Positions 9,402-47,809 of a DNA stretch of 64,000 nt are shown here, piece by piece. Location of the stretch: the NCBI RefSeq assembly GCF_036488675.1, contig NZ_CP133148.1, positions 868,001-932,000 of the forward strand, written 5' to 3'. Within the stretch, counting starts at the first letter, position 1. Every line of letters starts with the position of its first letter. The notes beneath the pieces were generated by a model. The model did not search any database. It was not told the origin of the DNA and worked only from the letters and a program-made list of their open reading frames with translations. The position numbers were made by a program, and so were the translations under genes. This DNA comes from Sinorhizobium chiapasense. Its GTDB lineage: Bacteria > Pseudomonadota > Alphaproteobacteria > Rhizobiales > Rhizobiaceae.

Positions 9402-9430
9402 GCGGCATAAGTTTGCACCGTTGCAGACAG

Positions 9431-9452
9431 AGGGGGCCGCGCGCCCCCTTTT
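9431..9452 (+). terminator. Intrinsic terminator after capsid/decoration pair
   Basis: GGGGGC (9432-9437) pairs with GCCCCC (9443-9448) and is followed by TTTT. It separates the two highly expressed head genes from the tail genes downstream. Confidence 0.7.
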
Positions 9453-9468
9453 ATTCAGGAGAAGAGAC

Positions 9469-19940: not shown

Positions 19941-22900
19941 CTATCTGTAGATGGGATCGGCCAGCCGCTCGCGCAATTCCTTGCCGAGCGCCTCATTGCT
20001 GATCAGAACACCGTCCTGACGCTTGGCCGAGATGCCCGCCCGGGTCTTGATCGAACGCTGCAGTGTCTCTTTCGTGATCGCCACCGGTGCGTTGACCTTG
20101 ACCGCGTTGAACCGCTTGATGCCATCGACCGCCTCGGACATGGCTTCCTTGTCCTTCGCGAGCGCCGCCATTGCAAATCGGGTGATGAGGCGCTGGCGCT
20201 TCTGCTTCACACGGCTCTCCGCGTCCTTCAGGGCCGAGTTTCGATCCCATGTCTCTGCGACCTCTGCCGGCGTGAAGCCAAGCGCCTGGGCGATGATGTT
20301 CGAAATGCCGATCTCGTCCTGCGGCACGATCTCATCGCCACGGAGCGAGGTTACGCCCTCGTCGGCGTAGCGGTATGCCTTCATCAGGTCGCGCACAGCC
20401 TTCGGAGCCATCATCTCGAGTCCGCGGGCGACGTCGCCCTCGTCGGTGATGACGTTGAAGCCCCGGTAGAACTGCTCTCCAAGCGACACCGTGGCGCCGA
20501 GGGACTGCGACAGCCAATACTGGTACTCGTCCTTGCCTTGAAGCTCGCGCGAGGGCGAGCGGAACCACAGGTCCGGCATACCGATGCGCGACGTGAGGTC
20601 GATGCCGAGATAGTGCCCGGGAGCGCCATTGAGGACGATGCCGCCGAGCTGGGGGCCAAGAATATCGACGATGTTCGCCCGGAACCTCTGTTCGAAGCCC
20701 ATCGGATCATCGTCATCGCCGAGGATCATGCCGGCAAGGGCCATGGCGAGGCTGTAGCCCATCACGCCAGACACGCCCGACATGAGCGCCATCATGCCGG
20801 TGATGCCGGCGACCTGGTACCGCGCTTCGCGCCGAGCTGCCGGCGTCTCGCCCTTCACCGCCTGATGGATATCGCGGAAGACGCGATAGAGCATGTTGAT
20901 GTTGTGCTGGCGGAACACCAGCGCGACCTTGGCAAAGTCGTTCTGTAGCAGTGTCGGGCGCGAAGAGTTCGAATAGTCGAAGTGCGTCTTCCACGTGAGC
21001 TCGTGCGCGGTGTCGATCGCCTCCGACTGGTTCTGGCCGGCAGCACGCGCCAGGCGGTAGGCCGCCAGCGCCGTCACTTCACGGTTCCACACCTCGGCAC
21101 GGTGGAACGCCCACGAGATGACGCCCATGATCCTTGCCCGGAGCGGGGAATACTCGACACCGGTCTCGCCGACGCCGGCAAGATCGTGGCTCTGCGTGCG
21201 GTCGATCAAACCGGACTGGTAAAAGGCAGAAATCGCCTTCTTCTCGTCTTCCTTGAGGTTGGCATTGACGATCGACCCACGGCCCGCGACGGAATCGCGG
21301 GACGCTTGGGCGAGCGCCCTTCCAGCCTTGAGAAGCCCGCCGAATCGGGCGCCGAGCACCGGCAGCCCGAGCATGACAGTTTGTGTCATGTTGACCATCG
21401 CGGAAGCAGGCGAGGCGGCGAGGAACCAAACGAACGCCGTGCTCGTCATCGTCTGCGCAACCTTGCTCCCGGTCGGATTCATGACCCAGTCGTGACGCTT
21501 CGACAGTTCGTTGGCGAGCGTCATGGCGCGGGTCGGATCGTCGGCCTCCTTCGCCTGGTCGAAGGTCTGGTTCACGAGCTCCTGGAGCTCGAGGCCGAAT
21601 TTCACGCGCGCCATCTGGTGGGCGGCATGGAACATGTGTGACGAGAACACCCGCAGCGCGTCACCCGTAAAGCCGGCCGTGCCCTTGCGGTGGATGAACC
21701 GTTTGCGGGCGGAGAGGTCCGGCATCGACTCGAGGTATCGCTGCCACACGTGATCCATCAACTCCGGACTGACGCCGGAACCGCCAAGAAGTTCCTCGAT
21801 CTCGGCAACAATGCGGGGGTCCATGGCGCGGCGGAGGTCACTGCCGGCTTCCATCACGCCAACTTCAAACTTGGCGTTGGGGAGGTCCTTCCGTATCTGG
21901 CGCACCGCCCTGTCGCGATCGGCGACGGTCTCGAACTTGGAGAAGCTGAGAACCTTCCCGTCGATGTCGCGCACCGTCGCGAAATACCGGCCAAAGCGGC
22001 CGAGCGGGAAGTACGGTCCCTGCACGCGGCTCGCCTCAAAGGCGATACGCATGCGGGTAAGCCTTGCTTTCGCCGCCCACTGGCCCTTCGTTGTCGCGGA
22101 GCGATAGGCGCTGGCTGCGTCTTCCTCGGCATTCCTCTTGTCGACACCGGTAAGGCCAGCATCCTTGATCTGCTGCAGCGTCCGCTTGTAGCGTTCCTCG
22201 GCCTGCCGGAGGGCGATTTCCTGCGCCTTGCGAACATTATCGAGCAGGATTTCGTCCAGTTCCTCGGTCTGCTCCCAGTAAGCGTCACGGACCCTGTTGA
22301 ACAGCTCTCGGCCTTTTGGCGGCAGACTGGTGTATGCCTTCCGCAGCACCTCATATCCGGCCATCCCCTTGGTCTCCGCGTCAACCTTAGACGGGTCGAT
22401 ACCGGACAGCGTGGCGTCGTGCATGAGGTCGGCGAGCGCCTGGGCCTTCGCCTTGTCCTTCCCCATGAAGCCGAGCCGGGTGTATTTCAGCCATTCCTGC
22501 CCGATCGCGTCTGCCTCGGCATGCTTGGTGCCCCGGAAGGCATCCATCATGCGCTTGACGCGGAGATACTCGCCCACGGCCTTCATGTTGGGCCGGGCGA
22601 GCTCGGTGAAATAGTTGAGGGGAATGGTTTTGAGGATGGCGGGCTGAAGGTCGGTGAGCTTGCCGCGAAGATCCTCGACGATGCGGGCCTCGGTTACGCT
22701 TTTGAGCGTTTCTCGGCCTCGACCTTTTGCTTGATAATCTGGCGCGCTTGTTTCAGCGAGGCCGCTCGTGTCGGATCGCCTGCCGGCATCTGGTTTAACC
22801 GCAACAGGTGTTCGCGCCACTTCTGCAGCGTGTCGAAGGGGCTCGGCGCGTCGATCGGACCGCTTACCTGTATTTTTTGGCCCATTGAAGATTTCTCCAG

Positions 22901-25900
22901 CCAATTTCTCGGCGGCTGTATCGATCACGGCTTCAAAACCCGGGATCGCGGCAGCACCGTAAGGGGTGTTTGTGGTGAAGTCTATGACGTTTGCACGATC
23001 TGCAGCCATCAACTTGCCGACGCCGTGGGCCTCGGTGGCTTCCTCGACGGTGATCGCCCGGCTATCGAGCCGCGACTGCAGGAAGCCTTGGAGTGCGTAT
23101 TCGACACCGATCATGGCGTTCTTCAGCTTTGCCATGGTCAGTGCAGCAAGGTCCGGCGTTGCGCTGGACAGCGCGTCCCTTGCTGCTGCCGTCAGTGACG
23201 CGCGGGTGACTCGGCCATCGTGGCCTGCCGCCCAGATCGAATAGAGGCCGGGATAGACAAGAAACCCGATGTCGGCCGAACTGAGGGGGCCATTGCTCGG
23301 ATGGTTGTGGTACACGACAACCTTGCGGTCGGGGTTCGCCATCGCGGCCAGCAGTTTGTTGTTCATGCCGGTGTTGGCCTTGTCGCCCGCCGTGCCGTAC
23401 TCGACCACGGAGGCGTCGTCATCGATCGCCAGCAGGTATTCGTGGCCGGTTCGCAATCCGTCCTCGGTGACGCGCTCAATCGCCGCGTCGCGCAGCGGAA
23501 CGCCCTTCTTCAGGTCAGGCGCGCCCAACGAGCGCAGGGTTCCATCCGCGCCCGACATGGTCGGGTCCGGCCGCTTGTCCTGCTTTGCCGGCGCCGCTTC
23601 GGGCGAAACATCTGCGGTGACCTCTGCCGTCTGCCCCGGGGCAGGCTTCGGTTTCGGCTTGAGCGCATCCACCAGGCGGCGATGCCGGGCCGCAGTCTCG
23701 TCGAGTTCCTGCTGACCGGTCCACGCGGCGATCTGCTTTTCGAGGGCAGGGGTCTGCTTCTCGATCTCGGCGATACGCTCCTTGTCGGTGGCCGGCACGC
23801 GGGCAAGCCCCTTGATCGTGTTGACGATGCGCATGGCCGTGCCCGTCGGGTCCATATCGGCCGCATCCTCGACGCTGACATGGTAGTCGCGGTCGCCGGT
23901 CAACGTGATGTCGAACTGGCGGGAGTGCATGTGCTCGATCGAAATCTTGAAGGTGGCGTAGTCGCCGATCTCGGTCTCGCCCGCCTTGTCGATCAGATCC
24001 TTGCGGATCGCTGCAATGATGGCGGCACCGAACTCCTTGTGCTTGTCAAAGGATTCGCCCTTGATCGTCGCCGAGAAAGGCTTGCCTTCGATCGCCTGTG
24101 CCCGGCCAGCGTCGGCCTCGACTTCCGGCAGGCGATCACGCAGCGACTGCGCTTCCTCGTCAAGCGAGCGGATACGGCGCTTGATGCGGTGCTGTTCGCG
24201 ATCGTGTTCCGACGCCTGGCGTTCGAGCTGCTGCAATTTGCGCCGGGTCTCCATTTCCTCAAGGATGAGGGGATTGCCCGACGCCGCGGCTTTCATCTCG
24301 GCCGCGTTGGCTGCCTCGCCGCCGATATCCTCGATATCGCGCTTCTTGAGGTCGCCCTTGCGGATTTGCTCAATGAACTTCGCCTTTGCCTCGATCGTCT
24401 GCCACTGACGCGCATCCAGCGTGTTCTCGGTGGCATAGCGCATGATCTCGATCTCGAATCCTTCCGGATCCTCGGCATAAAGCTCGTTGCCCTGGCGGAT
24501 GCCGCGGCCGTCGCGCTGTTCGAGGTCGGACGGACGCCACGGCGCGTCGAGATGGTGCAGGCCCACAAGGCGGTTCTGCACGTTGGTTCCCGCGCCCATT
24601 TTCGCCGTCGAGCCGAACAGGAAGCGGATTTTCCCCGACCGGACCTTGCCGAACAGTTCCTCCTTCTGTGCCTCGGTGTTGGCGTCATGGATGAAGGCGA
24701 TTTCGCTCTCGGGAATACCGCGGTCGATGAGCTTCTGGCGAAGATCGTCATAGACCGAGAACGGGCTCTGCAGCGCGAGGAAGTCATCGGGCGACATTTT
24801 GTCCAAGGCTTCCTGCGCTGCCTCGTCACCGTCCTCGGCCTTGGCGATCAGGTCGCGCAGCCTGGCCTGTTCAGCTGCCATGGCCTTCTTCGGCGTGGAC
24901 AGGTCGATGAACACAAGCTGCGTGCCGCGCTTGTCGGTCCATTTCCTATAGATGCGAACCATCTCGTCGGCTGCCCGGTGCACCTTGGAGCGGCGATAGT
25001 CGCCATAGCCGGAATCGACGAGGCGCATGTCGAGCGCCGCCTTTCGCGCGTCCGACATGACTTTCAGCATGTTGTCCGCGCCCTTTTCCGCCTTTTTCGG
25101 CAAGTTTTCGGCGCGCCAGACGATCGATCCTTGGGGATAGATCAGGTTCCCGGCATCGTCGGCCCGGCCTTCGCCGATGTATTTCGCCTGATCCGGGGAG
25201 CGTTCGACGACAACGATGGTCGGCTTGCCGCCCTTGACCTTCGGCAGCGGCATAGTCCGGCCCAAGGCCTTCATCTGCGCCTTGATGTCATCGTTGGTGA
25301 TGACGTCGGCGAAGGACAGGTAGCGCTGCATCAGCTCGGGGACGTTGACGAACTTGGCGAACCTGGAATTCAGCTTGTATTGGCCCGACGGTGACAGTTC
25401 CCAATCGGTGACGACTTCGCCAAACACCTTCGCCCATGCATCGAAATGCGCGATGCCAAGGTCCGTCAGTGACTTCCGGTCGAGATACCGCTGCATGGTA
25501 TACATCTCGGCCATGGTATTGCTGAGCGGCGTTCCGGTAAGGAACGCGACGTTGTTCCCGCCGGTCTTTTCCAGCACGAACTGCGTCTTCATGTAGAGGT
25601 CGGCCGCGCGCTGGCTGCCGGCAGCGTTGCCGAGGCCGGCGACACGCTGCATGGAGGTGGAATAGGCGAGGTTCTTGAACTCGTGCGCCTCGTCGACCGT
25701 GATGTCGTCGATGCCGAGCTCGTCGAAGGTCAGACCATCGTCCTTCTTCCCGGCGTCGAGCAGCTTCTCCATCTTGGCCTTGAGATTGTCGCGCCATTTG
25801 GTGAGCTGCGCGACGTTCCGGCTTTTCTGGCCGGTCTCGCGGCGGAGTTCAGCGATGGAAGCCTCAAGATCATCCATCTGCTCCTGGATGAACCGGGCCT

Positions 25901-28900
25901 CATACTCAGGGTTCATGCCGATGCGGCCGAAGGACGAGTGGGCGACGATGACAGCGTCCCAATCACCGGTCGCGATGCGGGCGAACAGCCGCTTGCGGTT
26001 CTCCTTCTCGAAGTCCCGTTTGGTCGCTGCCAGCACCTTGGCGCCGGGATAGAGCTTCACGAAATCCGTCGCCCACTGGCCTACCAGGTGGTTCGGCACG
26101 ACAACCATGGGCTTGCGCGCCTGCCCGATGCGGCGCTTTTCCATGATGGATGCGATGGCGGCGAACGTCTTGCCGGCACCGACGGTATGATCGGCGAGGG
26201 CGGTGCCGCCTTGCAGCCGGCGCCAGATGAACGACTTCTGGTGAGGGCGGAGCTCGATGATGTCATCGCCAACCTTGCCCGGAAGCGTGAGGTGCGAGCC
26301 GTCAAACTTGCGAAGAACGTCGGTGTTGAACGTGTCGTTGTAGAGCCGGACGAGTTCCTCGCGACGGGCATCGTCCTGCCACAGCCACTTGTCCCACTCG
26401 GCCTTGACGCGCGCGGCCTTCTCGTTAGCCGCCTCCGTCGCAGGCTGATTAACCTCCGTCTTCCCGTCGCTGTACCGATCGTAGATGGTGATACTCTGGC
26501 CGTTCAGAACAGCGTGGAGCACGGCGTCGACGCTGGCGCGATCGGTACCGTATAGCGTCGAGGCTGCCGGGCTCGCCCGGGGAACGTCGATGGCCCACTT
26601 TGCGTTGGCCCGGGAATAGTACGCCTTGCCGCGGTCGCCGCTCTCCGTGATGTGCATCACGAAGTCTTCGACATGCTTCGCGGGCACCCACGGAGCGCCT
26701 GGCTTCACATCGATGTCAACGGCCTCGATGTCCGCCGGCTGCACATCGCGAAGTGCGGCGATGTTGCGACGGAAGTCCGGATCCTGCTCGGCGGCACGCT
26801 CCGCCTCGGCGAGCTTCTGCTTGACGTTGCCGGAGAGGTAGGCGGCGGCGGTCTCATAGGCACCGGATGGCGTCTTGTAGACCAGCGGCCCCAATTCCTC
26901 GACAATAGCCTCGGCGGGCTTGCCGTAGAGGAACGACATGGCATCGAGGTTGATGCGGCCGAAGTCGTTGAGCGATGCAGCCAGTGCATCCTTGGCACTG
27001 CCAACGCTCGTGACACGGCTGTAAGGCTGCTGCGTTCTCTTGGTGAAGATCGCCGCCTTCTGCGCGCTCGGAGCTCGAGCTGCCTCGCCCGTCTTCTTGG
27101 CGACGGTGGAACTGACGCCCTTGTCGAATCCTTGTTCGAGGGCGCTGATCTGCGGCCATGTCGGATCATCACGGAACAGCCGCTTATTGGCGTCCGAATT
27201 GATCGGCCCTTGCTTGGCGACAAAACCGTCGTAGAGCGTGTTCAGCCGCTTGCGCAGGTTCTCGATTTGCGCGTCGCTCGCCTTCTCGTCGATCTGGGCC
27301 CGGCGGAGTTTCGCGAAGGCGTCGCGGACACGGATCATGCCCTGCACGCGCGCCTTGGCGGCTTCGCTCGGATATTCGAGGACCTGGGAGACCGGCTGCC
27401 CGAGGTGATCGGGCATACGAAGATGCACCTCGCCATCCGGCGCGAGGAACGCGGTGCCCACCTGCACGTCGGCCACGGTTTCGGGCACGTTGACCGTTTC
27501 CGGCACCACCGCGGCGCCGGGTTCAGCCATGACATTCTGCGGCAGCGCGCGAATCGCCTTTTCGAGCGCCTTCGGCAGGTTCTCGCCTTCACGCGCAACC
27601 AGTGCCGGTTCGTCGGGCCCGTACATGGTGCCGTAGGCGCCGAAGTCGCCCAGCATCATTTCCGGCTTGTCGAGGAAATACTGGTTGAGCGGGACAGCCT
27701 TGCCGTCCTTGCCCTTCCACTCGCCAACCTTCGTCCAGGACGTCTCCGGCTTGTCTCCCTCGAGTCTTTTTCGAAGGATCACGATATCCGTCGTAACCTC
27801 GGTCCCGGCGTTTTTCAGGAAGGCGTTGTTCGGCAGCCGGATCGCGCCCACCAGGTCGGCCGTCTTGGCGATGTGCTCCCGCGCTGCGGCGTTGGTCCCA
27901 TCGAGGAAGCGGTTTGTCACCACCATCGCCAGCACGCCACCCGGGCGCAGCGCCTCGACAGACTTCGCGAAGAAGAAGTTATGGATCGAGAACTTGTTGA
28001 GGTGCCGGCGCTGCTTGTCGTAGAGCTTTTCGGAGCCAAACGGCGGGTTGCCGATGGCAAGGTCGAAATAGTCGTTCGGTACGGTCAGCTTCTCAAAGCC
28101 CATCGGCGCTTGAACATTGGCGCCCGGGTACAGGTTCTTGGCGATGCCGCCTGTGATATGATCCAGTTCGACGCCAGTGATGGCCGCGCCCTCGCGCAGC
28201 TCACCGGGCATCAGACCGAGGAAGTTGCCGGCACCGACGGACGGTTCCAGCACCTGGCCGCCCTTGAAGCCGAGCCGCCGGGCAATATCCCACACGGCGG
28301 AAACCACCTGTTGCGCAGTGTAGTGGGCATTGCGCGTTGAGGATTCGGCAGATGCGTATTCAGTCGAATCGAGAAGCTGTTTCAGTTCGGCCGCTTCCCG
28401 CTCCCATCCCTTCGCAACCTCGCCGCCCTCGCGATAGAAGGCATTGCGCAGTCCGCCCCAGCCCACCCATTTGGCGAGCACGCTCTGTTCGCTGCGCGTG
28501 GCCGGGCGCTTTTCCTCGTCCAGCTTCCGCAACAGTCGGATTGCTTCAACGTTGCCCCGGAACTTGGCCTTGGCGCCGCCTTCCCCGAGCTCGTCCGCAT
28601 CGGTGATGACATAGTCCGTCGGCCGCTGTTGCGCCGGGGTGGCTGCCGATTGGATGTCGCGAAGGCGATCGGCGGTGCGTGAACTGGCGACGCTGCCGGC
28701 ACTTACCTCTCTGGCGTCTCCGGCGGCAGCAGCAAGTAGGTCTCCCTGACCTGCTGCCACGCCTCGTCCGGCTTCACGCCCTGCTGCTCGAGCTGATCCG
28801 CTGCCTGATACGTCTGCTCGGCTGCGTCGGCCAGCGCCTGCTCCAGAAGGCCCGCCTTCTTCAGCTCTCGGTACTTGTTCGGCAGATGCTCTTTCCAGTG

Positions 28901-31900
28901 CTCCCGACCGAGATTGATCCAGTTCTGCAGAAACATCTTCCGTGGTTCCTTCTTCGGCACTGATGGCCGCGACGTCGGTGGTCTCGACTTCTGCGGCACT
29001 GGACATGCCCTCAAACGCGGCAGCACGTGGATCATATTTGACCCCCATGTACCACGACTTCAAGTAGGGGCGCACGTCGTCGCCAAGGTCCGCAAGCATC
29101 GCCTTGGCGTAGGCCGCGAACGTGCGCGCGCCCTTCTCGATATGATAGCCGGCGAGGGTGATGCCGGCCTGCAGTATCTCGGGGTCAATGCCGCTGTTGA
29201 GCGTGCTGCCGGACAGCTTCCGACGAAGCAGGGCGCGCGCCTTCTCCGCCGCATCCTCCGTGAACACAGTGTTGGCCGTGACGGGCAGTTTCGGCTTGGG
29301 TTCGGCCTTAGCCTTGGGCTTGCGCTGTGGCTCTGCGGCCGGCGAGGACGCAAGTCCGTCCTCGATCGCTTGCATGCCCTTCTCTGGCTCCAGGGTGACG
29401 CCGGGCTCCATGTCGCGATGGAAGAACCGTTCGACCTTCACCCATTCCTCGTCCGTGAGCTCCTGCAGTCGTTCTGCCAGAGCCAGCTTGCCTTCAAGCA
29501 GGGTATTGCCGCCTTGCTCCGCCCACGACTCGAGTCCTTGGCGCAGGTCGCGCATGAGATCGGTGTAGTCGCGGCGTTGGGCGCCTTTCTTCGGCTCGGG
29601 CTTCTCGACCTTCGGGGGTTCGGCTTTGACCTCTGTCGCGGGCTCGCTGAATTGTTTTTGAATATCTTTCGTCGGATTTGCAGATTTTTCGCGGATTTCG
29701 AAACGCTTGCCGTTCTCGATCACCTCATGCGTGGCGCCGAGCTTTTCGTTGGCGACATGGGCCTCGGCCTTCTCGCGTGTGCCGAACCATTTCGGCGCGA
29801 ACGGTTCTTGCGTCTTGCCGGATTCGAGCCAAGTCTTGAAGCCGTCCAGGGTGGTCTCGCTGATCGCGCCAAGTCCCTTCCAGCCGCTGGTATAGTTTTC
29901 CATGTAGGCGGCGCGAGCCTCATCCTCGCTGCCATAGCCGAACATGACCTTGTGCTCGTCGAATCGGCCCCGTGCGGGGTCGCGCTGATCGACGACGTAG
30001 ACGTTGGAAGAGCCGTCGAGCGTTTCCGTGCCCGGCTTCACGAACACGTCGATATGGTCCTTGTCACGGCCGACGGTGCCCCTGATGTAGCCGTAGTGGC
30101 TTTTCATCGTGACGGACCACGGCTTGCCGGATGGGCTCGTGCCCTTGCGCTCGGAACCGGCTGGGTTCTCGATCGAGATATCGAGGCCACCGAGGCGGAT
30201 GCGCCCCACCTTGTAGTTGCCGGCCTCTTTCTGCGCCTGTGTCGGCTCCGGCAGGTCGTTGGTCGGAGAGGTTGCGGCTTCGTTCGCCGCCTCGTCCACG
30301 GTCACAGCTGCGTCGCCAGCCTCACGCAGGTAGTTAAGGCCTTCACGGGTGGCTGATGTCCGCACAGCCTGCAACGTGGCCGCTGCTGCTTCCGAGATGG
30401 TGCCGTGTGCGTCCGCTCCGATCTGCTTCCCAAAGCTCGATATGCGGATGTAGCCGTGATTTTGCAAAGGCACTTCGCCGGTCTCGAACAGCCTGCCGAA
30501 GAACTCCGCATGATCGCCATTGGGGTTAGAGGTCGCGTTGAGCACCAGGAGCTTGCCGCCGGGCTCGATGATGGCCGACTCCTGGCTGTCCCTGCTCTGT
30601 GCAACGCGGCGGGCGAACTCGCCCGGCGAGACACGCTTCGCCATTTCCTTATGGATGGACGCAACGGACTGTCTGCTTTGCCATTCCGCCTTACGAGCTT
30701 CTGTATCGTCGCCCTCTGAGTCGAACGTCGGCGGTGCGGGCTTGGCCGCTTCACTTCCGGACATCTCGACGATCTGATTGCCGGCGCTATCGCCCGCGGC
30801 AGGTGCAGTGCCTTCATCCCGGGTCGCGAGAAGCTTCTTCTGGATGTTTGGGGTGAGGTGCTGCCACATGACGCGCTCGTTGCGCTTCACGCCAGACATT
30901 TCGAGCACCTGCTTGCGGCCGGCGGCGGTCAGTTCGACGTCCCACCACTGGCCGGCGTCATCCTTGACCGCTGGGGCCTCCGGTGCCTGCTTGGCCCGCG
31001 CCGCCTGGCGCTGCTTTAACAGGCGCTCGTTGACCTGATGCATCTTCACCGGAAGGGCGGATTTGGCCTCTTTCGACGCGCGCTCGACGCGGTACCGGTA
31101 GTCATCAGCCAACGTAGCGATGTCATCGACCGATATGCCGAACTCGTCAGCCAGCCGCTTGCGCTCCGCCGGCAGGACGGATGCCATGTCCACCTGTGAC
31201 GTGCCGCCAAGCTTCTTGGCGATGAGCTGCTCGCGAGCAAGATCATAGAGGTGCGCGTGCTTCTCGTCGGGCAGGACAACGGTGCGCGGACCAACGCGGC
31301 GGCTGTTCGGTCCGGCATCGGCCGGTTCGCGCTCGATCGGTGGATTGCGTTCGAGCTCCTGTTTCTCGACCTGCTGCGGCGTAAGCCCGCTGACGGAAAG
31401 CTGCTCTACGGGCACCTGATAGGGGTTGCCCTGATCATCGATGACAACGGCCTCGTTGCCATCTTCCTGATAGGTCTCGATCCGGGCGGGGAAGCGCTTG
31501 CCGTCCTCGGCTTCGACAATGACGCGCTGACCGGGGTCCGGACGCGTCGGCCGCTTCTCGGTCGCGGGCTTCTGCTCGCTGGCAGGCGGGATTTCCGTCG
31601 TGGTCTCGGCTGCCCTCGGCTCAAGCGGCTTCAAGGCCTCGTCGCTCGATTCCTCGGGCAGGACGTCGCGGACCGGCGGCTCCGCCTGTGCCTGGCGCAA
31701 CGCTGCAGCCTGCTGATCTACCGAATCGGCGATCTTCGTCACGTTGCCGATGGGCACCTGGTAGAGTTCGCCCGTGCCGCCATCGACGACAACAGCCTCG
31801 TCGCCTTCGTACCCCTCGATGCTACCAAGGATCGGGTCCATGCCTCCGGCATCGACACGCACGGTCGCGCCGATCTCCGGGCGACCGTCCTGCGGTACCG

Positions 31901-33917
31901 GAGCTAGGGCAGGGGCCGCTGTTGCTGCTGCCGGCTGGTCGGGCATGGTCCGCACTGCCCGTTCTTCGGCCTTCTCCTGCGAGTGCCTTACCGCGCGACC
32001 GAGCGGGCCACGCGGCTCCGGCTCTGCCGTCGGCTGGGGGTTGGCGTCGATTGCATGCGCCGGCGCACGGCTAACAGCGCCGCCGGCGCCACCCATGCCA
32101 GCGCCCATTGCGCCACCGGTCGCGAGACCGGCCGCTGCAGCTTCCTCAACGCCTTCGGTGATGCTCTGCGACGGGTTCACCTGCTTGACGGCGAGGTTTT
32201 CCGCCATGGTTTGAGTGACGCCCTGCGGCAGCTCTTCAAGCACGCCCTCGGCAAACGCGCCGCGGGCGGTGCTGCGGAGGATGCGCTGCGCAACATTGCC
32301 ACCGACGCCCTCTGCGAGGATCTTCGCAAGGGTCCTATCGCCCATACCGCCGAAAGCGCCCGTCGTCACACCTGCGATGATGAAAGCCTGCGTCGCCGCG
32401 TCCTGGGTCACTGCCTTGACAGCATCGCCCTCGGACATACCGCCCTCGACCATGTCGCGCACTGCTTCCGACTGCAGGAGCTGCTCGCGCGGGATAGCGG
32501 CGATGCGCTCACGGACGCCGCGCGAGGATTCGCCGCCGGCCAGCATGCCTTCCGACACGGCGCCGGCAATGGTTGCGGTCTTTGCCGCGGCTGCAGCGGC
32601 TGTTGCTGCCTCGGCACCGCCTGCCAGCATGCGCAGATAGGTCGCGCGGGCGAGGACGCCGCCCGGGAGCATGGTGATGATGGTGCCGGGGGCCGATTCA
32701 CCAACGCCACGGAGATAGCTGCGCGGATCGGACCACGCCGGGCCGAACGTCCCGCTTTCGGCGTTCCACCACTTCTTGGCGTCGGCTTCCTGCTGGCGAG
32801 GCGTGACGCTGGCATCAGCCGTGGTGGCGTATTCCTCGAGGCGTTGCTCGGTAGGCTTACCCGTCACCCACGTATCGATCGCGTCGAGAGTATTGACCAC
32901 GGTCGGGCCGATACCGGGGATCATGCCGACGGCTTCACGCGTGGCGAGACCGAGACGGGCATTGCCCGCGCCAAGAATGCGGCCAAGGTCGCCGAGCACG
33001 CCGCTCGACCGGTTCTCTTCTTCCCAACGCTGCTTCCATGCCGGAAGCTCGGCCTCGTCCAACACCTGGTACCGCCCGGGATCACTCGTTTCGAGTGCCT
33101 GCTGCGCGGAATCGACGCGAGCGTTGTCGGCCTGATCGCGGACAGCGATCTTCTCCCGCTCGGCCGCGGCTTGCGCTTCTGCCGCCGCGGCGACCTTCTG
33201 CTCGCCAATCGCCTTCGCTTCCTGCATGAACGCCGGATTGCTTGACGTGAAATTCTCGTCGATGACAATTCCGCCGCTTTCCTCGGCGCTGCCGCCGCCG
33301 AGCAATCCGCGCGCCTTCGCCCGGTGACCGTGCATCTGCTGCTCGACTTTGTCGCGGACGGTGCCCGGCGCCCCGCCGTTGCCCGCGTCGCTGGCGTCGT
33401 ACTTGCCGACACGGCCCGCATTGATGGCGGAATAGATATCGAGCAGCCCCATGCCCGGCTTAACGCCGGCATCCTTGAGGTAGTTGGCGACGGCGCCGCC
33501 TGCGCCGAGCTGCGAGCCGACGGGGTCATTCCAATCGACGCCATAGCGTGCGGCCTGCGGCTCTCCGAACTGGATCAAGCCACGATGGCGCCCCCATTGC
33601 GTTCTCGGCCCGGCTTTCGTCGGGTTGAAGGTTCCTGCCGTCTCGTAGGAAATCGCGGTTGCGAGGTCTTCGGGATCAATGCCGAGCTCGGCGGCGGTCT
33701 CGATGATGCCTTGCCGGATGTCTGTTGGCCCCGCGTGCTCGGTCATGACCGCGTCAAACGGCTTCTCCGCCTCGCGGCGCTTTTCCTGTTCGGGCACGTC
33801 TACCGCTGGCGTCGATCGGGTCTCGCCATCCAGCCCGAAACCGGACTTGGCGCCGCTGGAAAGGTTGAGGGGATTGCTCCACTCGATATCGGTATCGAGC
33901 CCAATGACGATCGGCAT
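19941..33917 (-). CDS. Giant polyvalent protein (4658 aa): transglycosylase-like, PPase-like, N6-adenine methyltransferase, SNF2 helicase, JAB peptidase, C-terminal LPD region
   Basis: The start is taken as ATG at 33917 (MPIVIGLDTDIEW, GGAG upstream); a GTG at 33944 lies inside the 12-bp box. Approximate domains by residue: 70-200 lysozyme/transglycosylase-like (LATAISYETAGTFNP); 400-610 hydrophobic, Ala/Gly-rich; two SH3-like copies at about 680-730 and 790-845 ending in YQVP; 1235-1370 pyrophosphatase-like (GYIRGTVGRDKDHIDVFV); 1770-2080 adenine methyltransferase with VLEPSVGAGNFLG and IGNPPFG; 2520-3180 SNF2-type helicase with Walker A HTVGAGKTF, DEAH in VDEAHEF and motif VI QRDGRGIRQGN; about 3540 JAB peptidase motif HNHPSNGPLSSAD; 3745-4658 a long helical region with hydrophobic stretches, like LPD38-type polyvalent regions. 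Phage polyvalent proteins of this kind (DarB-like) are packaged and injected to protect DNA from restriction. Two small genes are overprinted on its linkers. Confidence 0.9.
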   Translation of the reverse strand: MPIVIGLDTDIEWSNPLNLSSGAKSGFGLDGETRSTPAVDVPEQEKRREAEKPFDAVMTEHAGPTDIRQGIIETAAELGIDPEDLATAISYETAGTFNPTKAGPRTQWGRHRGLIQFGEPQAARYGVDWNDPVGSQLGAGGAVANYLKDAGVKPGMGLLDIYSAINAGRVGKYDASDAGNGGAPGTVRDKVEQQMHGHRAKARGLLGGGSAEESGGIVIDENFTSSNPAFMQEAKAIGEQKVAAAAEAQAAAEREKIAVRDQADNARVDSAQQALETSDPGRYQVLDEAELPAWKQRWEEENRSSGVLGDLGRILGAGNARLGLATREAVGMIPGIGPTVVNTLDAIDTWVTGKPTEQRLEEYATTADASVTPRQQEADAKKWWNAESGTFGPAWSDPRSYLRGVGESAPGTIITMLPGGVLARATYLRMLAGGAEAATAAAAAAKTATIAGAVSEGMLAGGESSRGVRERIAAIPREQLLQSEAVRDMVEGGMSEGDAVKAVTQDAATQAFIIAGVTTGAFGGMGDRTLAKILAEGVGGNVAQRILRSTARGAFAEGVLEELPQGVTQTMAENLAVKQVNPSQSITEGVEEAAAAGLATGGAMGAGMGGAGGAVSRAPAHAIDANPQPTAEPEPRGPLGRAVRHSQEKAEERAVRTMPDQPAAATAAPALAPVPQDGRPEIGATVRVDAGGMDPILGSIEGYEGDEAVVVDGGTGELYQVPIGNVTKIADSVDQQAAALRQAQAEPPVRDVLPEESSDEALKPLEPRAAETTTEIPPASEQKPATEKRPTRPDPGQRVIVEAEDGKRFPARIETYQEDGNEAVVIDDQGNPYQVPVEQLSVSGLTPQQVEKQELERNPPIEREPADAGPNSRRVGPRTVVLPDEKHAHLYDLAREQLIAKKLGGTSQVDMASVLPAERKRLADEFGISVDDIATLADDYRYRVERASKEAKSALPVKMHQVNERLLKQRQAARAKQAPEAPAVKDDAGQWWDVELTAAGRKQVLEMSGVKRNERVMWQHLTPNIQKKLLATRDEGTAPAAGDSAGNQIVEMSGSEAAKPAPPTFDSEGDDTEARKAEWQSRQSVASIHKEMAKRVSPGEFARRVAQSRDSQESAIIEPGGKLLVLNATSNPNGDHAEFFGRLFETGEVPLQNHGYIRISSFGKQIGADAHGTISEAAAATLQAVRTSATREGLNYLREAGDAAVTVDEAANEAATSPTNDLPEPTQAQKEAGNYKVGRIRLGGLDISIENPAGSERKGTSPSGKPWSVTMKSHYGYIRGTVGRDKDHIDVFVKPGTETLDGSSNVYVVDQRDPARGRFDEHKVMFGYGSEDEARAAYMENYTSGWKGLGAISETTLDGFKTWLESGKTQEPFAPKWFGTREKAEAHVANEKLGATHEVIENGKRFEIREKSANPTKDIQKQFSEPATEVKAEPPKVEKPEPKKGAQRRDYTDLMRDLRQGLESWAEQGGNTLLEGKLALAERLQELTDEEWVKVERFFHRDMEPGVTLEPEKGMQAIEDGLASSPAAEPQRKPKAKAEPKPKLPVTANTVFTEDAAEKARALLRRKLSGSTLNSGIDPEILQAGITLAGYHIEKGARTFAAYAKAMLADLGDDVRPYLKSWYMGVKYDPRAAAFEGMSSAAEVETTDVAAISAEEGTTEDVSAELDQSRSGALERASAEQVPRAEEGGPSGAGAGRRSRADVSGSGSARAAGREAGRGVAAGQGDLLAAAAGDAREVSAGSVASSRTADRLRDIQSAATPAQQRPTDYVITDADELGEGGAKAKFRGNVEAIRLLRKLDEEKRPATRSEQSVLAKWVGWGGLRNAFYREGGEVAKGWEREAAELKQLLDSTEYASAESSTRNAHYTAQQVVSAVWDIARRLGFKGGQVLEPSVGAGNFLGLMPGELREGAAITGVELDHITGGIAKNLYPGANVQAPMGFEKLTVPNDYFDLAIGNPPFGSEKLYDKQRRHLNKFSIHNFFFAKSVEALRPGGVLAMVVTNRFLDGTNAAAREHIAKTADLVGAIRLPNNAFLKNAGTEVTTDIVILRKRLEGDKPETSWTKVGEWKGKDGKAVPLNQYFLDKPEMMLGDFGAYGTMYGPDEPALVAREGENLPKALEKAIRALPQNVMAEPGAAVVPETVNVPETVADVQVGTAFLAPDGEVHLRMPDHLGQPVSQVLEYPSEAAKARVQGMIRVRDAFAKLRRAQIDEKASDAQIENLRKRLNTLYDGFVAKQGPINSDANKRLFRDDPTWPQISALEQGFDKGVSSTVAKKTGEAARAPSAQKAAIFTKRTQQPYSRVTSVGSAKDALAASLNDFGRINLDAMSFLYGKPAEAIVEELGPLVYKTPSGAYETAAAYLSGNVKQKLAEAERAAEQDPDFRRNIAALRDVQPADIEAVDIDVKPGAPWVPAKHVEDFVMHITESGDRGKAYYSRANAKWAIDVPRASPAASTLYGTDRASVDAVLHAVLNGQSITIYDRYSDGKTEVNQPATEAANEKAARVKAEWDKWLWQDDARREELVRLYNDTFNTDVLRKFDGSHLTLPGKVGDDIIELRPHQKSFIWRRLQGGTALADHTVGAGKTFAAIASIMEKRRIGQARKPMVVVPNHLVGQWATDFVKLYPGAKVLAATKRDFEKENRKRLFARIATGDWDAVIVAHSSFGRIGMNPEYEARFIQEQMDDLEASIAELRRETGQKSRNVAQLTKWRDNLKAKMEKLLDAGKKDDGLTFDELGIDDITVDEAHEFKNLAYSTSMQRVAGLGNAAGSQRAADLYMKTQFVLEKTGGNNVAFLTGTPLSNTMAEMYTMQRYLDRKSLTDLGIAHFDAWAKVFGEVVTDWELSPSGQYKLNSRFAKFVNVPELMQRYLSFADVITNDDIKAQMKALGRTMPLPKVKGGKPTIVVVERSPDQAKYIGEGRADDAGNLIYPQGSIVWRAENLPKKAEKGADNMLKVMSDARKAALDMRLVDSGYGDYRRSKVHRAADEMVRIYRKWTDKRGTQLVFIDLSTPKKAMAAEQARLRDLIAKAEDGDEAAQEALDKMSPDDFLALQSPFSVYDDLRQKLIDRGIPESEIAFIHDANTEAQKEELFGKVRSGKIRFLFGSTAKMGAGTNVQNRLVGLHHLDAPWRPSDLEQRDGRGIRQGNELYAEDPEGFEIEIMRYATENTLDARQWQTIEAKAKFIEQIRKGDLKKRDIEDIGGEAANAAEMKAAASGNPLILEEMETRRKLQQLERQASEHDREQHRIKRRIRSLDEEAQSLRDRLPEVEADAGRAQAIEGKPFSATIKGESFDKHKEFGAAIIAAIRKDLIDKAGETEIGDYATFKISIEHMHSRQFDITLTGDRDYHVSVEDAADMDPTGTAMRIVNTIKGLARVPATDKERIAEIEKQTPALEKQIAAWTGQQELDETAARHRRLVDALKPKPKPAPGQTAEVTADVSPEAAPAKQDKRPDPTMSGADGTLRSLGAPDLKKGVPLRDAAIERVTEDGLRTGHEYLLAIDDDASVVEYGTAGDKANTGMNNKLLAAMANPDRKVVVYHNHPSNGPLSSADIGFLVYPGLYSIWAAGHDGRVTRASLTAAARDALSSATPDLAALTMAKLKNAMIGVEYALQGFLQSRLDSRAITVEEATEAHGVGKLMAADRANVIDFTTNTPYGAAAIPGFEAVIDTAAEKLAGEIFNGPKNTGKRSDRRAEPLRHAAEVARTPVAVKPDAGRRSDTSGLAETSAPDYQAKGRGRETLKSVTEARIVEDLRGKLTDLQPAILKTIPLNYFTELARPNMKAVGEYLRVKRMMDAFRGTKHAEADAIGQEWLKYTRLGFMGKDKAKAQALADLMHDATLSGIDPSKVDAETKGMAGYEVLRKAYTSLPPKGRELFNRVRDAYWEQTEELDEILLDNVRKAQEIALRQAEERYKRTLQQIKDAGLTGVDKRNAEEDAASAYRSATTKGQWAAKARLTRMRIAFEASRVQGPYFPLGRFGRYFATVRDIDGKVLSFSKFETVADRDRAVRQIRKDLPNAKFEVGVMEAGSDLRRAMDPRIVAEIEELLGGSGVSPELMDHVWQRYLESMPDLSARKRFIHRKGTAGFTGDALRVFSSHMFHAAHQMARVKFGLELQELVNQTFDQAKEADDPTRAMTLANELSKRHDWVMNPTGSKVAQTMTSTAFVWFLAASPASAMVNMTQTVMLGLPVLGARFGGLLKAGRALAQASRDSVAGRGSIVNANLKEDEKKAISAFYQSGLIDRTQSHDLAGVGETGVEYSPLRARIMGVISWAFHRAEVWNREVTALAAYRLARAAGQNQSEAIDTAHELTWKTHFDYSNSSRPTLLQNDFAKVALVFRQHNINMLYRVFRDIHQAVKGETPAARREARYQVAGITGMMALMSGVSGVMGYSLAMALAGMILGDDDDPMGFEQRFRANIVDILGPQLGGIVLNGAPGHYLGIDLTSRIGMPDLWFRSPSRELQGKDEYQYWLSQSLGATVSLGEQFYRGFNVITDEGDVARGLEMMAPKAVRDLMKAYRYADEGVTSLRGDEIVPQDEIGISNIIAQALGFTPAEVAETWDRNSALKDAESRVKQKRQRLITRFAMAALAKDKEAMSEAVDGIKRFNAVKVNAPVAITKETLQRSIKTRAGISAKRQDGVLISNEALGKELRERLADPIYR
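22694..22885 (-). CDS. Overprinted small gene inside the giant gene (63 aa)
   Basis: A 63-residue frame on the same strand as the giant gene but in another phase. It has its own ATG with GGAG nine bases upstream, a well-formed sequence (MGQKIQVSGPIDAPSPF, then a helical LQKWREHLLRLNQMP and a basic end KQKVEAEKRSKA) and a TAA stop. In the giant frame the same DNA reads as an Arg/Ser-rich linker (TGKRSDRRAEPLRHAAEV) without family likeness. The location is the junction between the JAB region and the C-terminal region. The protein looks more natural than the giant-frame reading; function unknown. Confidence 0.6.
   Translation of the reverse strand: MGQKIQVSGPIDAPSPFDTLQKWREHLLRLNQMPAGDPTRAASLKQARQIIKQKVEAEKRSKA
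28703..28936 (-). CDS. Overprinted small gene inside the giant gene (77 aa)
   Basis: Translated from ATG at 28936 (AAGGA ten bases upstream) to TAA at 28703, same strand as the giant gene but shifted in phase. The product is amphipathic-helical and looks like a genuine protein: MFLQNWINLGREHWKEHLP, then KYRELKKAGLLEQALADAAE and AWQQVRETYLLLPPE. The giant-frame reading of the same DNA is a Gly/Ala/Ser/Arg linker (SGAGAGRRSRADVSGSGSAR). It lies just before the methyltransferase domain. Similar small proteins accompany polyvalent genes in other phages, as far as I recall. Function unknown. Confidence 0.7.
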   Translation of the reverse strand: MFLQNWINLGREHWKEHLPNKYRELKKAGLLEQALADAAEQTYQAADQLEQQGVKPDEAWQQVRETYLLLPPETPER

Positions 33918-33940
33918 GCGCGGTGCTCCATTCAGAGACC

Positions 33941-33994
33941 GCACTCATGCGCGGAACGACACCGCCGTTATAATTCGAGTGCCGGCAAAAACAA
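33941..33994 (-). promoter_or_regulatory. Leftward promoter with 12-bp box before the giant gene
   Basis: On the minus strand: TTGTTT (33994-33989), 16-bp spacer, TATAAC (33972-33967), 14 bp, then GCGCATGAGTGC (33952-33941). It follows a terminator, so the giant gene has its own transcription unit. Confidence 0.6.
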
Positions 33995-44317: not shown

Positions 44318-44922
44318 GCTGCAACTCCTTCCAGGCACTCGCGCACTTCCGCGATGCACTCGTGCCCGAGGTCCGCCTGCCACCGGATGGCGGCGCTTTC
44401 ACACCGATTATCGTTCTTGATGACCTTGTAGTGCTGCAGGCAGTCGAGGAACGGTTTGAGCCGGTTATCGACGTCCATCAGGCCGTGCGGCCGCTCCATG
44501 GCGATGACGATGTCGAACGGCTTAGTAATCGGCACCGCGGGAGGTTTGACGAACCAGCCGGCGTCGGTAACCCATCTCTTGTAGACCTTCGACTTGCGAC
44601 GGTTCTCACCCCATCCGGTATACATGTCCCAAATGGACGGCGGCAGCGGCAGGCGGAAGCGCAGCCACGGGCGATCGTCCCGCCGAACTGGTTGAAGCCC
44701 TGCGGCTTCCATGAAACGCTGCCACGCGTCGGTAACAGCCCACTTCGCCGAATCCTCGTCCAACGCCAAGCCACGCCCCGAGAAACCTCCCGAGGCGATC
44801 CATGTATGCCACTGCCACATGTTTCCGCCGGGCGAGGGCGGGTTGATGTAGCCGATCCTGACGGTGCCGACCCATGCGACGCGCCAGTCGAGGGCATAAT
44901 TGGGTTCCGACCAGACGATCAC
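44314..44922 (-). CDS. RusA-type Holliday junction resolvase with extra N-terminal domain
   Basis: A 202-residue protein starting at GTG (GTGA overlap with the upstream stop, GAGGG before it). The C-terminal 110 residues are RusA-like: LPLPPSIWDMYTGWGENRRK, KVYKRWVTDAGW, and the metal-binding MDVDNRLKPFLDCL (Asp 150, Asp 152, Lys 156) plus NDNRCESAAIRW. The N-terminal 90 residues (VGTVRIGYINPPSPGGNMWQ and WHTWIASGGFSGRGLALDED) form a separate small domain common in phages. It resolves branched DNA before packaging. Confidence 0.85.
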   Translation of the reverse strand: MIVWSEPNYALDWRVAWVGTVRIGYINPPSPGGNMWQWHTWIASGGFSGRGLALDEDSAKWAVTDAWQRFMEAAGLQPVRRDDRPWLRFRLPLPPSIWDMYTGWGENRRKSKVYKRWVTDAGWFVKPPAVPITKPFDIVIAMERPHGLMDVDNRLKPFLDCLQHYKVIKNDNRCESAAIRWQADLGHECIAEVRECLEGVAA

Positions 44923-46004
44923 TCTGCGGCCCTCCTCTCGCGCTCGGCGATGAGAGCCTCATAGCGGCTGTGTATGCTGCCTCGGGTGAGATAGTCGGCC
45001 TCGATACCGACGAGCTTCGAAACGCTACGGCGTACGAGCGCGAGGACATCAGCCTCGTCGTCTGTCAGCATACGTGTGGGCCAACCCTTCACGTAGCGCA
45101 TGTCCGAGGTGATCGCCTTTTCCAGGACTACTCGTTCCTCCGCTCTTGCCTTGGCTTGCGCGTGTGCCTCGCGCATCTCCTTGGAGAGAAGGTGTGGCGC
45201 CACATCCCCAAGCCAGCGACTGCCCTGGAATGCAAAGGTGCTATCGATCTCCAGCCCCACCATGCGGCGATAGAGCGGGTGAGCCTCCTCCTGTGCCGCG
45301 GCTGCGGTCAAATCGGCGATGCTCGACATGATGCAGAAGCGGCAGGAGACACGGCTCATGCCGAACTCGGCATAGGCGACATGTGGTTTGAGGCCGGAGA
45401 ATGCGATGTAGGAGAAGACGTCTGCCTCGCTCCAGTCAGAAATCGGACGCCAGTTGATCGTACCGTCACCATCCCGATCGGCAATCGAGCCTTTCGCACG
45501 GGCGGCGCTTTCCTGCCGGCGCACGCCGGTGACATTGATGATCTGCAAACCCTTGAAGCGTCGCCGCAACTCGGGACGGATAACCTGGGTCTTCAGTTCG
45601 GACGTGCAGAAACGAAGGGACGGGGTGGACCAGCAGGGCACCAGCGTCACCGTGCTAAGCTCCGAGTAACGCAGCTTACTGGATGCCCACCTGGCCTCCC
45701 AACGCTGCATGAGATCGCCGGCCTTGCGGCGCACAATGAGTAGTTCGGCGCCGAGATGATCGGCGAGCTTCTGGCAGGTGGGTAGCGAATCCTTCCATTC
45801 GACTGCGCCGAGATCGCTATGGATCAAAACGCGAGGTCCGACGTGCCCAGCCGAATCGAGCTTGGCGAAAGTGGCGAGAGCCGCAGCCTGGCTATCCTTG
45901 CCGCCAGAAACGCCGATCGCGACGGCAGCATTAAGGGCAATCGCGTGATCGACATCCGGCGTCGTTGCAATCGGAAACGGGAAACGGACGATATTGATGG
46001 TCAC
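44919..46004 (-). CDS. PAPS reductase-like / PP-loop ATP pyrophosphatase
   Basis: A 361-residue protein starting at GTG (GTGA overlap). The PP-loop GVSGGKDSQAAAL is near residue 33; HSDLGAVEWKDSLP is the next conserved block; Cys residues in SLRFCTSELKTQV and SCRFCIMSSIADL suggest an iron-sulfur or disulfide centre, as in DndC- and PAPS-reductase-like enzymes. VTGVRRQESAARAK is the substrate-binding loop. It may activate sulfur for base or backbone modification of phage DNA, or only scavenge sulfate; the next gene is a DNA methyltransferase, which favours a DNA role. Confidence 0.8.
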   Translation of the reverse strand: MTINIVRFPFPIATTPDVDHAIALNAAVAIGVSGGKDSQAAALATFAKLDSAGHVGPRVLIHSDLGAVEWKDSLPTCQKLADHLGAELLIVRRKAGDLMQRWEARWASSKLRYSELSTVTLVPCWSTPSLRFCTSELKTQVIRPELRRRFKGLQIINVTGVRRQESAARAKGSIADRDGDGTINWRPISDWSEADVFSYIAFSGLKPHVAYAEFGMSRVSCRFCIMSSIADLTAAAAQEEAHPLYRRMVGLEIDSTFAFQGSRWLGDVAPHLLSKEMREAHAQAKARAEERVVLEKAITSDMRYVKGWPTRMLTDDEADVLALVRRSVSKLVGIEADYLTRGSIHSRYEALIAERERRAAE

Positions 46005-47809
46005 TCTGCCGCCTCCGCAAACTCTTGGCGAACGTTGCAGGCTGCCAACAGGCGGATCATCTCAGGCGGCACGCTGTTGCCGACTAGATGATATTTCTCC
46101 GTCTTCGTGAGCTTCCGCTCGACACCATCGATCGTGATCTTGTCTGGCAACGATCCGCGCGCGAAACCGTGGGCAGCAGCGCCTTCCTCTGGTTCGAGCA
46201 TGCGCATGCCGATGTCGTTGATCACGAATGTCTCGCGACCGACGGTGGCGGTGACGAGACCATGACGGGCCTTCTGCGTCAGAGCGCCAAGCGGCGCCGC
46301 GATATCATCGTCCTGCTTGCCGTTGGAGTAGTAGTGTTGCAGGAACCCGAGGATCAGGTGCGCGTTGTCGTTGGCATCCTCGCCGAGGTCCGCTGCCATA
46401 ACGCCAGCATGGCACCCGCCGGCGGTTACCGTTGCAACAGGCTCCTGGATGTCGCGGCCGTGCCTGTTCGTGCCGCGCAAGGCCATCATGGACGCCGTCA
46501 CCACGCCCTGCGTCGATCCCTTGCTGACGATCGTCGACAAAGGCAGGTCTGCGGGGCGGCCGGGCTCACCGGAATTGTGCTGCGCCATGAATGCAGCGAC
46601 CAGCGCGGACTTCCCGCCTCCGCCAGGCGTCACGGTTGGGGCCGGTTCGTCGAGATTGGCCCCAATGCTGTTCCCGAAGTCGCGCTGCAGGTGCGCAGTG
46701 ACGAGGGCGTGACGCGGTTCGGTTACAAACGTTTGCAGAGGCTCTTGCGGGTCGCCACCACGCCGGAGGCCCTGTTCCCCGCCATAGTAGGCTTGCAGTG
46801 ACGGCGCGACGACGCTCAACTCGCCGCGGTGCGCGGTAGTGAGCGTGCGCAACGGCTCATCGAGCGAATGCACGCGATCGGCACCGGTGTGCGTGATTGG
46901 CACGATGAAGGGTCGAGCAGCGTTCACCACGTAGCGCATTACCCCCTTGGCGGTCCTGCGAAGCGTTGCGTCGGCGAGCGGCTTCCTGCGGTCGAAGATG
47001 GATTTGACCGGCAGCGACCAGTCAATGATCGTGTGGGCGCCCACCCACGGTTTCAAGCCGAGCTGCTTGGCGAGATGCCGGGGCGCATGCGTCCGTTCCG
47101 GCCATACGATGGGCCGGCCATCCGCCTGGGCGATGCCGAAGTAGCGTTTCCGAATCGTCGGAATGCCGTAGTCGGCGCAGACGAGGACCTTGCCCTCGAA
47201 ACTGTAGCCGAGGCCATGCATGTGCTTGAGCCAGGCTTTCCAGATGCGACCCCTCTTCTTCGGGTCCGGTACCAGCCATTGCTCTTGCACCGGTACGCGT
47301 TCCCCCTTGGCAGCAACGGTGCCGTCCAGCTTCATCACCCTGCCGGTCGCAGGATCGCGCTTGGCTATGAGCCCGCCCCACGTCTGGATCTCCGGCACGT
47401 TCTCAAGGGTGATCGTTTCCGGTCGGACGGTGCCGGCCCAGCGGCAGACCACCCACGCCAGCGAGCGGCGGCGCTTGCTGACCGGCTTCCCGCCCTTGGC
47501 GACGGAGAAGTGCGTGCAATCGGGCGAGGCGTGCAGGGCGCGAACGCCGCGGCCTTGAGTGACCTCGCGGGGGTCCGCCTCAAACACATCTTGGCAAAGG
47601 TGCTTGGTATGGGGGTGACGGCGCTCGTGCACTGCCACTGCCACCTTGTCGTGGTTCAAGGCCACGTGGACGTGAAAGCCTGCCTGCTCCAGACCGTCGC
47701 AGCTGCCGCCAAAGCCGGCGAACAGGACGATGGTCACACGATTGTCCAGGCCGAACGACAGCGGCACCGGCGACTTGCGGCGTCGGTTGATTGACGGCAC
47801 GTGGAGCAT
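46001..47809 (-). CDS. C5 cytosine DNA methyltransferase
   Basis: A 602-residue protein. Motif I VLFAGFGGSCDGLEQAGF binds S-adenosylmethionine; motif IV is SPDCTHFSVAKGG, with the catalytic Cys preceded by Asp rather than the usual Pro; motif VI ENVPEIQ follows. The middle repeats a segment of the kind DEPxxTVT (for example DEPLRTLTTAHRGELSVVAP and DEPAPTVTPGGGGKS, EPVATVTAGG), the expanded target-recognition region seen in phage enzymes. The C-terminus (YHLVGNSVPPEMIRLLAAC) holds motif X. It likely protects phage DNA. Confidence 0.88.
   Translation of the reverse strand: MLHVPSINRRRKSPVPLSFGLDNRVTIVLFAGFGGSCDGLEQAGFHVHVALNHDKVAVAVHERRHPHTKHLCQDVFEADPREVTQGRGVRALHASPDCTHFSVAKGGKPVSKRRRSLAWVVCRWAGTVRPETITLENVPEIQTWGGLIAKRDPATGRVMKLDGTVAAKGERVPVQEQWLVPDPKKRGRIWKAWLKHMHGLGYSFEGKVLVCADYGIPTIRKRYFGIAQADGRPIVWPERTHAPRHLAKQLGLKPWVGAHTIIDWSLPVKSIFDRRKPLADATLRRTAKGVMRYVVNAARPFIVPITHTGADRVHSLDEPLRTLTTAHRGELSVVAPSLQAYYGGEQGLRRGGDPQEPLQTFVTEPRHALVTAHLQRDFGNSIGANLDEPAPTVTPGGGGKSALVAAFMAQHNSGEPGRPADLPLSTIVSKGSTQGVVTASMMALRGTNRHGRDIQEPVATVTAGGCHAGVMAADLGEDANDNAHLILGFLQHYYSNGKQDDDIAAPLGALTQKARHGLVTATVGRETFVINDIGMRMLEPEEGAAAHGFARGSLPDKITIDGVERKLTKTEKYHLVGNSVPPEMIRLLAACNVRQEFAEAAE

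Follow-up and report, generated by a model that had tools for sequence, protein, structure and literature searches.

The question raised by this locus is whether a short open reading frame (ORF) lying wholly inside a very long one is a gene in its own right, and whether the long frame is translated across it as well. The locus is found in a 64,000-nucleotide stretch of Sinorhizobium chiapasense DNA (assembly GCF_036488675.1, contig NZ_CP133148.1, positions 868,001 to 932,000), referred to here as the window. An ORF of 77 codons at 28703–28936 lies on the same strand as an open giant frame (19941–33944) and in its relative frame +1. A first-pass annotation, made from the letters alone, described it as a gene with a start, a ribosome binding site and a stop overprinted on the giant gene, and these signals are present as an ATG at 28936, an AGGA ending 10 nt before it and a stop at 28703. 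The reading we favor, with a probability of roughly 0.9, is that the two form an ancient same-strand overlapping pair in which a TnpV-like gene lies in frame +1 inside a DarB-like methyltransferase/SNF2-helicase gene, both products being made and selected.

To identify relatives the 77-residue protein was searched against 50,697 phage records by tblastn, and 21 matched with coverage of at least 92% and identity of 40–74%. These correspond to 12 named phages, of which 11 were taken into the set and SJM3 was left out. A search of phages had been proposed in the first-pass annotation, and since homologues exist the small frame does not fall for want of them. The same search of plasmid records with the window protein returned no match. 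A profile built from 12 sequences (alignment A1, with 21 invariant columns) found 75 loci in viral contigs and 21 in bacterial genomes; some of the contigs are the same phages as in the phage records, and these duplicates are included in the counts. A second viral scan with alignment A2 gave 30 loci, nearly all on contigs already in the set, and was left out. The small ORF is present at all 107 loci and in the window, giving 108 ORFs for which the chosen start is ATG in 101 and GTG in 7. The 6.87 Mb host genome contains a single match to the small protein, and among 151 genomes of the host's family alignment A6 matched in four, the host's own included.

The nesting is regular. Among the 11 phage loci, 10 (all but PBC5) have the small ORF in the +1 frame of a single uninterrupted large frame. 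Of the full 108, 101 small ORFs (PBC5 counted) lie +1 in a large frame without stops along their length or for at least 60 codons beyond either end. A methyltransferase match accompanies 99 of these 101, and the other two (L044 and L068) lie at contig ends. The seven that are not nested by the 60-codon rule comprise five stand-alone copies, an apparent remnant with a partial methyltransferase match (L039) and L106, where the large gene begins about 27 codons ahead of the small one.

Start signals and substitution patterns both indicate that the small frame is a gene. Of 63 nested representatives, a set that excludes near copies, 60 have a Shine-Dalgarno (SD) motif 4–12 nt ahead of the start, while the background among same-frame ATGs elsewhere in the giant genes is 611 of 5120 (12%; binomial p about 1e-51). 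Among 27 pairs with no sequence in common, third positions of the small frame are the most variable in 26, the differences summed over the 27 pairs being 270, 260 and 561 at small positions 1, 2 and 3. The same 27 pairs reveal a switch at the gene boundaries: upstream of the small gene the giant wobble position is the most variable (0.31–0.34), inside it the small wobble position is (0.14–0.23, compared with 0.05–0.11 for the giant wobble), and past the small stop the giant wobble leads again (0.30–0.33). More than 300 nt upstream there is little difference in variability among the phases. The comparison of codon-level conservation in both frames suggested by the first-pass annotation thus comes out in favor of the small frame, which is the better conserved of the two inside the segment. 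The natural-looking helices that had been noted by eye are borne out by AlphaFold2, which predicts four helices for the window protein with a mean pLDDT of 89.2 and a pTM of 0.71. On the grounds of the SD-led starts, the third-position variation, the wobble switch, and the stand-alone homologues and predicted helices, the 77-codon ORF is, judged from its sequence, a real conserved gene.

Conservation of the small frame could also arise if ribosomes slipped +1 from the giant frame and ended at the small stop, producing an N-terminal half of the giant with a helical tail. At PBC5 the upstream half does continue in frame into the small ORF and ends there, with the downstream large frame overlapping the small ORF, and PHROG 938, a profile of 2185 positions, has the small domain at its C-terminal end. 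We nevertheless consider such slippage very unlikely. The small frame has a stop just 2–7 codons ahead of where the profile match starts at 23 of the 101 nested loci, duplicate phages among them, conservation begins by eye at the start codon, and the SD motifs described above precede nearly all starts. PBC5 is one of the 12 sequences in A1, and its arrangement may be a natural indel or a sequencing error.

The behavior of the large frame was assessed with 70 representatives sharing less than 50% of their 8-mers, selected from all 108 by the small ORF only and with near copies dropped. Of these, 65 have no large-frame stop over the small ORF, compared with an expectation of 4.9 when codons are resampled synonymously with each small protein and the local codon usage preserved (P about 2e-106, a value that ignores remaining kinship among rows). 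The five closed representatives are the five stand-alone copies, and the third frame is open in none of the 70. The residues read in the giant frame over the small gene also depart from resampling, with no Cys (1.3% expected), no Trp (0.4%), 0.2% His (2.2%) and 0.1% Tyr (0.8%), and the His depletion is not attributable to avoidance of stops. At fourfold degenerate third positions of the small gene G accounts for 61%, compared with 35% in the giant's own wobble positions, stop-making contexts excluded. Summed Cys, Trp, His, Tyr, Phe and Ile reach 0.34 of expectation at seven actinobacterial plasmid loci (7 open, 0.9 expected; L112, a near copy of L111, was not counted) and 0.17 at 12 loci of a second family described below (12 open, 1.0 expected). 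At the five stand-alone copies the sum is 0.81, with 28 stops (4.2% compared with 4.9% expected) and Cys at 1.04. The window conforms, since G, A, R, S, E and P make up 78% of giant-frame residues over the small gene and 47% of the whole giant, and the frame is open throughout, as expected of the linker that the first-pass annotation had recognized. As both openness and residues depart from resampling, the large frame is selected too, and what the giant protein seems to be under selection for, from this composition, is a hydrophilic linker.

Another possibility is that only the small gene is real here, with the large frame open through base composition and the methyltransferase gene starting downstream. 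Stops are few in GC-rich DNA, and five of eight actinobacterial records place the start of the large gene where the small ORF ends or farther downstream. This explanation is highly improbable given that the large frame is open in 65 of 70 cases and that residues are depleted in nested copies and much less so in stand-alone ones. It also has to contend with the window itself, where domains upstream and downstream of the small gene share one open frame and no start lies between the small stop and the methyltransferase region. The earlier claim that nothing restarts the giant frame there holds: the first giant-frame starts past the stop are TTG 28532 and GTG 28481, both within the methyltransferase homology, which we take as beginning at 28625, and one further GTG (28760) falls inside the overlap.

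An open small frame is no evidence by itself, because resampling constrained by the giant protein alone leaves it open in an expected 36.1 of the 63 nested representatives, and in 73% of synonymous resamplings of the window. The idea that it is an accidental protein-like frame in GC-rich linker DNA is already refuted by the 21 invariant columns, the wobble switch, the start signals, the stand-alone homologues and the relatives in Pfam TnpV. Tests of homology, start sites, wobble and the large frame confirm that the small ORF stands far above chance.

The identity of the small protein emerges through intermediates. Against TnpV (PF14198) the window protein scores 17.7 bits (E 0.0037), below the Pfam cut-off of 27 bits. 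Relatives found from the window family score 35.5 (L106), 26.7 (L085) and 23.3 bits (L083), and those reached through L085 score 28.4 (L109), 24.9 (L113) and 23.9 bits (L111). Five of ten diverged members scanned gave TnpV at E < 0.1 and the other five did not, and a scan of 20 relatives for PF14198 gave no matches, with controls silent. By these scores the family is TnpV-like, with the window protein itself not classed as TnpV; an insert seen in L085, L109, L111 and L113 is missing from it. A search of NCBIfam found no match. In the Protein Data Bank (PDB) the sequence matched only three designed helical proteins (best E 8e-5), which we regard as chance, and no natural relative, and a search by fold found nothing at E ≤ 0.001. 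A search of viral structures gave one match, Q8W6J4 (69% identity), which we take to be the PBC5 protein.

To determine how widely the pair occurs a second survey (A3) was anchored on the methyltransferase region. It comprised the best 80 of 445 viral loci, which are those nearest to the window, to which nine hand-picked loci were added from the 96 phage and 1971 plasmid records with a match. A broad profile of the small protein matches 83 of the 89 loci, 67 at E < 1e-3 and 16 more weakly (E 0.007 to 5). All 83 matches are nested in frame +1, a frame into which about a third of spurious matches would fall by chance. The best 80 gave 67 strong and 11 weak matches and two without a match, and 37 of them are contigs missed by the small-protein search (24 strong, 11 weak, two none). 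The two unmatched loci, L190 and L219, nonetheless have an SD-led +1 ORF at the same place. They belong to a second group, represented among the weak matches (alignment A5), whose ORFs occupy the same place and frame and are nearly all SD-led (L190, L193, L195, L198, L203, L211, L218, L219, L223–L226, L229, L231 and L232). At BcepMigl (L230), a member of the Bcep22-like group, a weak +1 match lies 41 nt ahead of the methyltransferase.

Plasmids were reached only via the diverged homologue L085, which has relatives in 22 actinobacterial plasmid records; L106 as query gave two records. All eight plasmid loci examined have a nested TnpV-like ORF in the same frame, and in these eight records the small ORF is annotated in five and the large one alone in three. 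In a human-gut element (L235) the nested ORF is a full TnpV (129 bits), and the methyltransferase-helicase frame around it extends over 1982 codons to the end of the record. In all, the pair occurs in phages infecting Pseudomonadota and a cyanobacterium, in actinobacterial plasmids, in a Fibrobacter bin and in the human-gut element.

A tree of 95 methyltransferase sequences, with near copies dropped, contains a group of 92 (support 98/97) that excludes L244, L233 and L228; a small ORF of one or the other family is present in 90 of the 92. The labels were assigned by hand, and those of L196 and L230 rest on weak matches (E 0.007 and 0.009). The age of the pair can only be inferred from this tree, as its root serves for drawing only and it has three long branches.

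The first-pass annotation suggested that the giant arose by fusion of neighboring genes across a small gene, which kept its own frame and turned its region into linker. The genuine gene in its own frame and the linker both stand, and it is the origin of the overlap in the assembly of the giant that is probably wrong, because the pair is also found where the giant's upstream domains are missing. The same nested pair is found, in the same frame, in methyltransferase-helicase genes that start only about 25–27 codons ahead of the small start (L106, L111 and L112). Since the pair also extends across most of the unrooted methyltransferase tree, the overlap most likely predates the giant, upstream domains having been added to a gene that already held it. 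It is plausible that the methyltransferase gene was first extended upstream through a pre-existing TnpV-like gene, given that stand-alone copies exist.

Several observations weigh against a tight and general dual-coding pair. At PBC5 (L002 14733–15309) and likewise at L014 the large frame is interrupted. The stand-alone copies L094, L097, L100, L101 and L107 are at loci without a methyltransferase match, and methyltransferase loci without the small ORF also occur (L227, L228, L233, L234 and the P1-like L244). In the Streptococcus phage phi-SsuZKB4_rum (L228) TnpV matches at 9199–9532 lie just past the SNF2 gene and are not nested in it; together with the stand-alone copies this means that the partnership with the methyltransferase is not strict. 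This phage's TnpV matches form two pieces that overlap, one of them broken by an in-frame stop, and they precede a tetracycline-resistance gene. The nine hand-picked loci gave no strong match, five weak ones and four without a match, and the link between the second, diverged family and the first (hhalign probability 68%) is no more than suggestive. The absence of stops in the nested set used for residue composition is by construction, because these loci were chosen for an open large frame. Stand-alone copies are also low in His (0.68) and Tyr (0.42) and raised in Glu/Asp (1.32) and Gly/Ala (1.23), so these residues discriminate less than stops, Cys and Trp. Finally, any functional role of the small protein is based on linkage alone.

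If dual coding is the correct reading, both frames are probably translated from the same mRNA. Some ribosomes would pass through the segment in the large frame and translate it as a hydrophilic linker ahead of the methyltransferase region, while others would initiate internally at the SD motif and ATG to make a helical protein, mostly of 75–135 residues. The small product is under selection for its amino acids, and the large one for a frame that stays open and contains little Cys, Trp, His and Tyr, by way of the small gene's synonymous positions. As a rule the small gene lies just ahead of the methyltransferase region.

The giant is of a known type, combining an adenine methyltransferase, an SNF2-type helicase and other mobile-element domains in one polyprotein; Eco57I, SNF2-rel_dom, InPase and LPD39 exceed their Pfam cut-offs, as does Helicase_C, barely. 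This is the DarB-like methylase-helicase dyad of polyvalent proteins outlined in the portions available of the polyvalent-protein and P1 DarB papers (PMC5512222; PMC9024508). P1-like DarB (L244) differs from the window giant in having no nested ORF at the corresponding place. According to the text available of PMC9144972, a Bcep22-like relative of the giant, JC1 gp69 (4515 aa), is a virion protein identified by 51 unique peptides, and in P1 the proteins Ulx (17 kDa) and DdrB (109 kDa) help DarB into the capsid (PMC9024508, likewise in part).

On this analogy the small protein could, rather tentatively, be a dedicated partner in the folding, loading or control of a methyltransferase-helicase that is carried into the new cell along with the DNA, encoded on the same mRNA. 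As plasmids also carry copies, its role is perhaps not limited to capsids. In a stronger form, which we hold equally doubtful, the pair would be an ancient trans-phylum dual-coding unit of phages and plasmids in which DarB-like methyltransferase-helicases require the small protein as a co-translated subunit. The synonymous positions of the small gene would then write a flexible hinge of the enzyme it serves, it would be hard for either gene to disappear, move or find a new partner on its own, and few same-strand nested pairs known from bacteria and their mobile elements would be as widespread. The PADLOC models returned no families for three proteins.

The arrangement can be compared with Rz1 inside Rz, where a small gene with its own start is likewise contained wholly within another (PMC9144972, in part). 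The families and the position differ, and Rz1 is a lipoprotein of the lysis module while the window protein is predicted to be helical. Here the small ORF lies wholly in an open larger ORF on the same strand, and selection is found in both frames. The portions seen of PMC5512222, PMC9024508, PMC10269572 and PMC9144972, a selection that does not include the original Bcep22 and TnpV papers, do not mention this nested gene, and the titles and abstract openings of papers found by a word search for TnpV neither mention nesting nor show a role for TnpV. Relative to these sources the nested TnpV-like/DarB-like pair is new.

Overlapping genes as such are well known and are usually considered young and bound to one lineage. 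One pair kept in one fixed relative frame across several bacterial phyla contrasts with this view, and dual coding may have persisted because the large frame needs only a hydrophilic linker, which synonymous sites of the small gene can supply. TnpV gains a usual neighbor and a testable function. There is also a fault of annotation, as some of the records examined show the small gene, some the large one and one, that of Pseudomonas phage Itty13, neither, and through this inconsistency a conserved protein of DarB-like systems has been overlooked. In Itty13 (L006 10905–22163) the giant frame is unannotated and three large hypothetical proteins are annotated over it on the opposite strand.

Coordinates of the features in the window (positions as in the 64,000-nucleotide stretch)
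Feature	Position	Strand	Remarks
Nested small gene, TnpV-like four-helix protein (predicted)	28703..28936	-	77 codons and stop, ATG 28936 to stop 28703
Shine-Dalgarno-like motif AAGGA	28947..28951	-	its AGGA ends 10 nt before the small ATG
Giant polyvalent gene	19941..33944	-	4667 codons; InPase, Eco57I-type methyltransferase, SNF2, helicase C and LPD39 domains (Pfam)
Giant-frame reading of the small-gene DNA	28703..28936	-	hydrophilic linker, judged from composition
Methyltransferase region, N-terminal part	28011..28625	-	directly downstream of the small gene; query of the second survey
Small frame open upstream	28937..29035	-	33 codons, outside the gene as defined (conservation begins at ATG 28936, by eye)

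Several of ten further window ORFs scanned match PHROG portal, terminase and virion families, so the window holds a prophage. Within it, at 44922–47809, an ORF resembling PAPS reductase adjoins a DNA-methyltransferase ORF. Near the small start the large frame contains stretches resembling QLNLF, QLLLDF or QLSF (L106 7919–8000, L109 and L110 around 9000, L111 1129–1205), which we presume to be reminiscent of sliding-clamp binding motifs. The stand-alone small domain of L107 (7962–8750, Pseudidiomarina) has a long membrane-like C-terminal extension, and genes about 4 kb downstream of it resemble what we take to be type I restriction genes.

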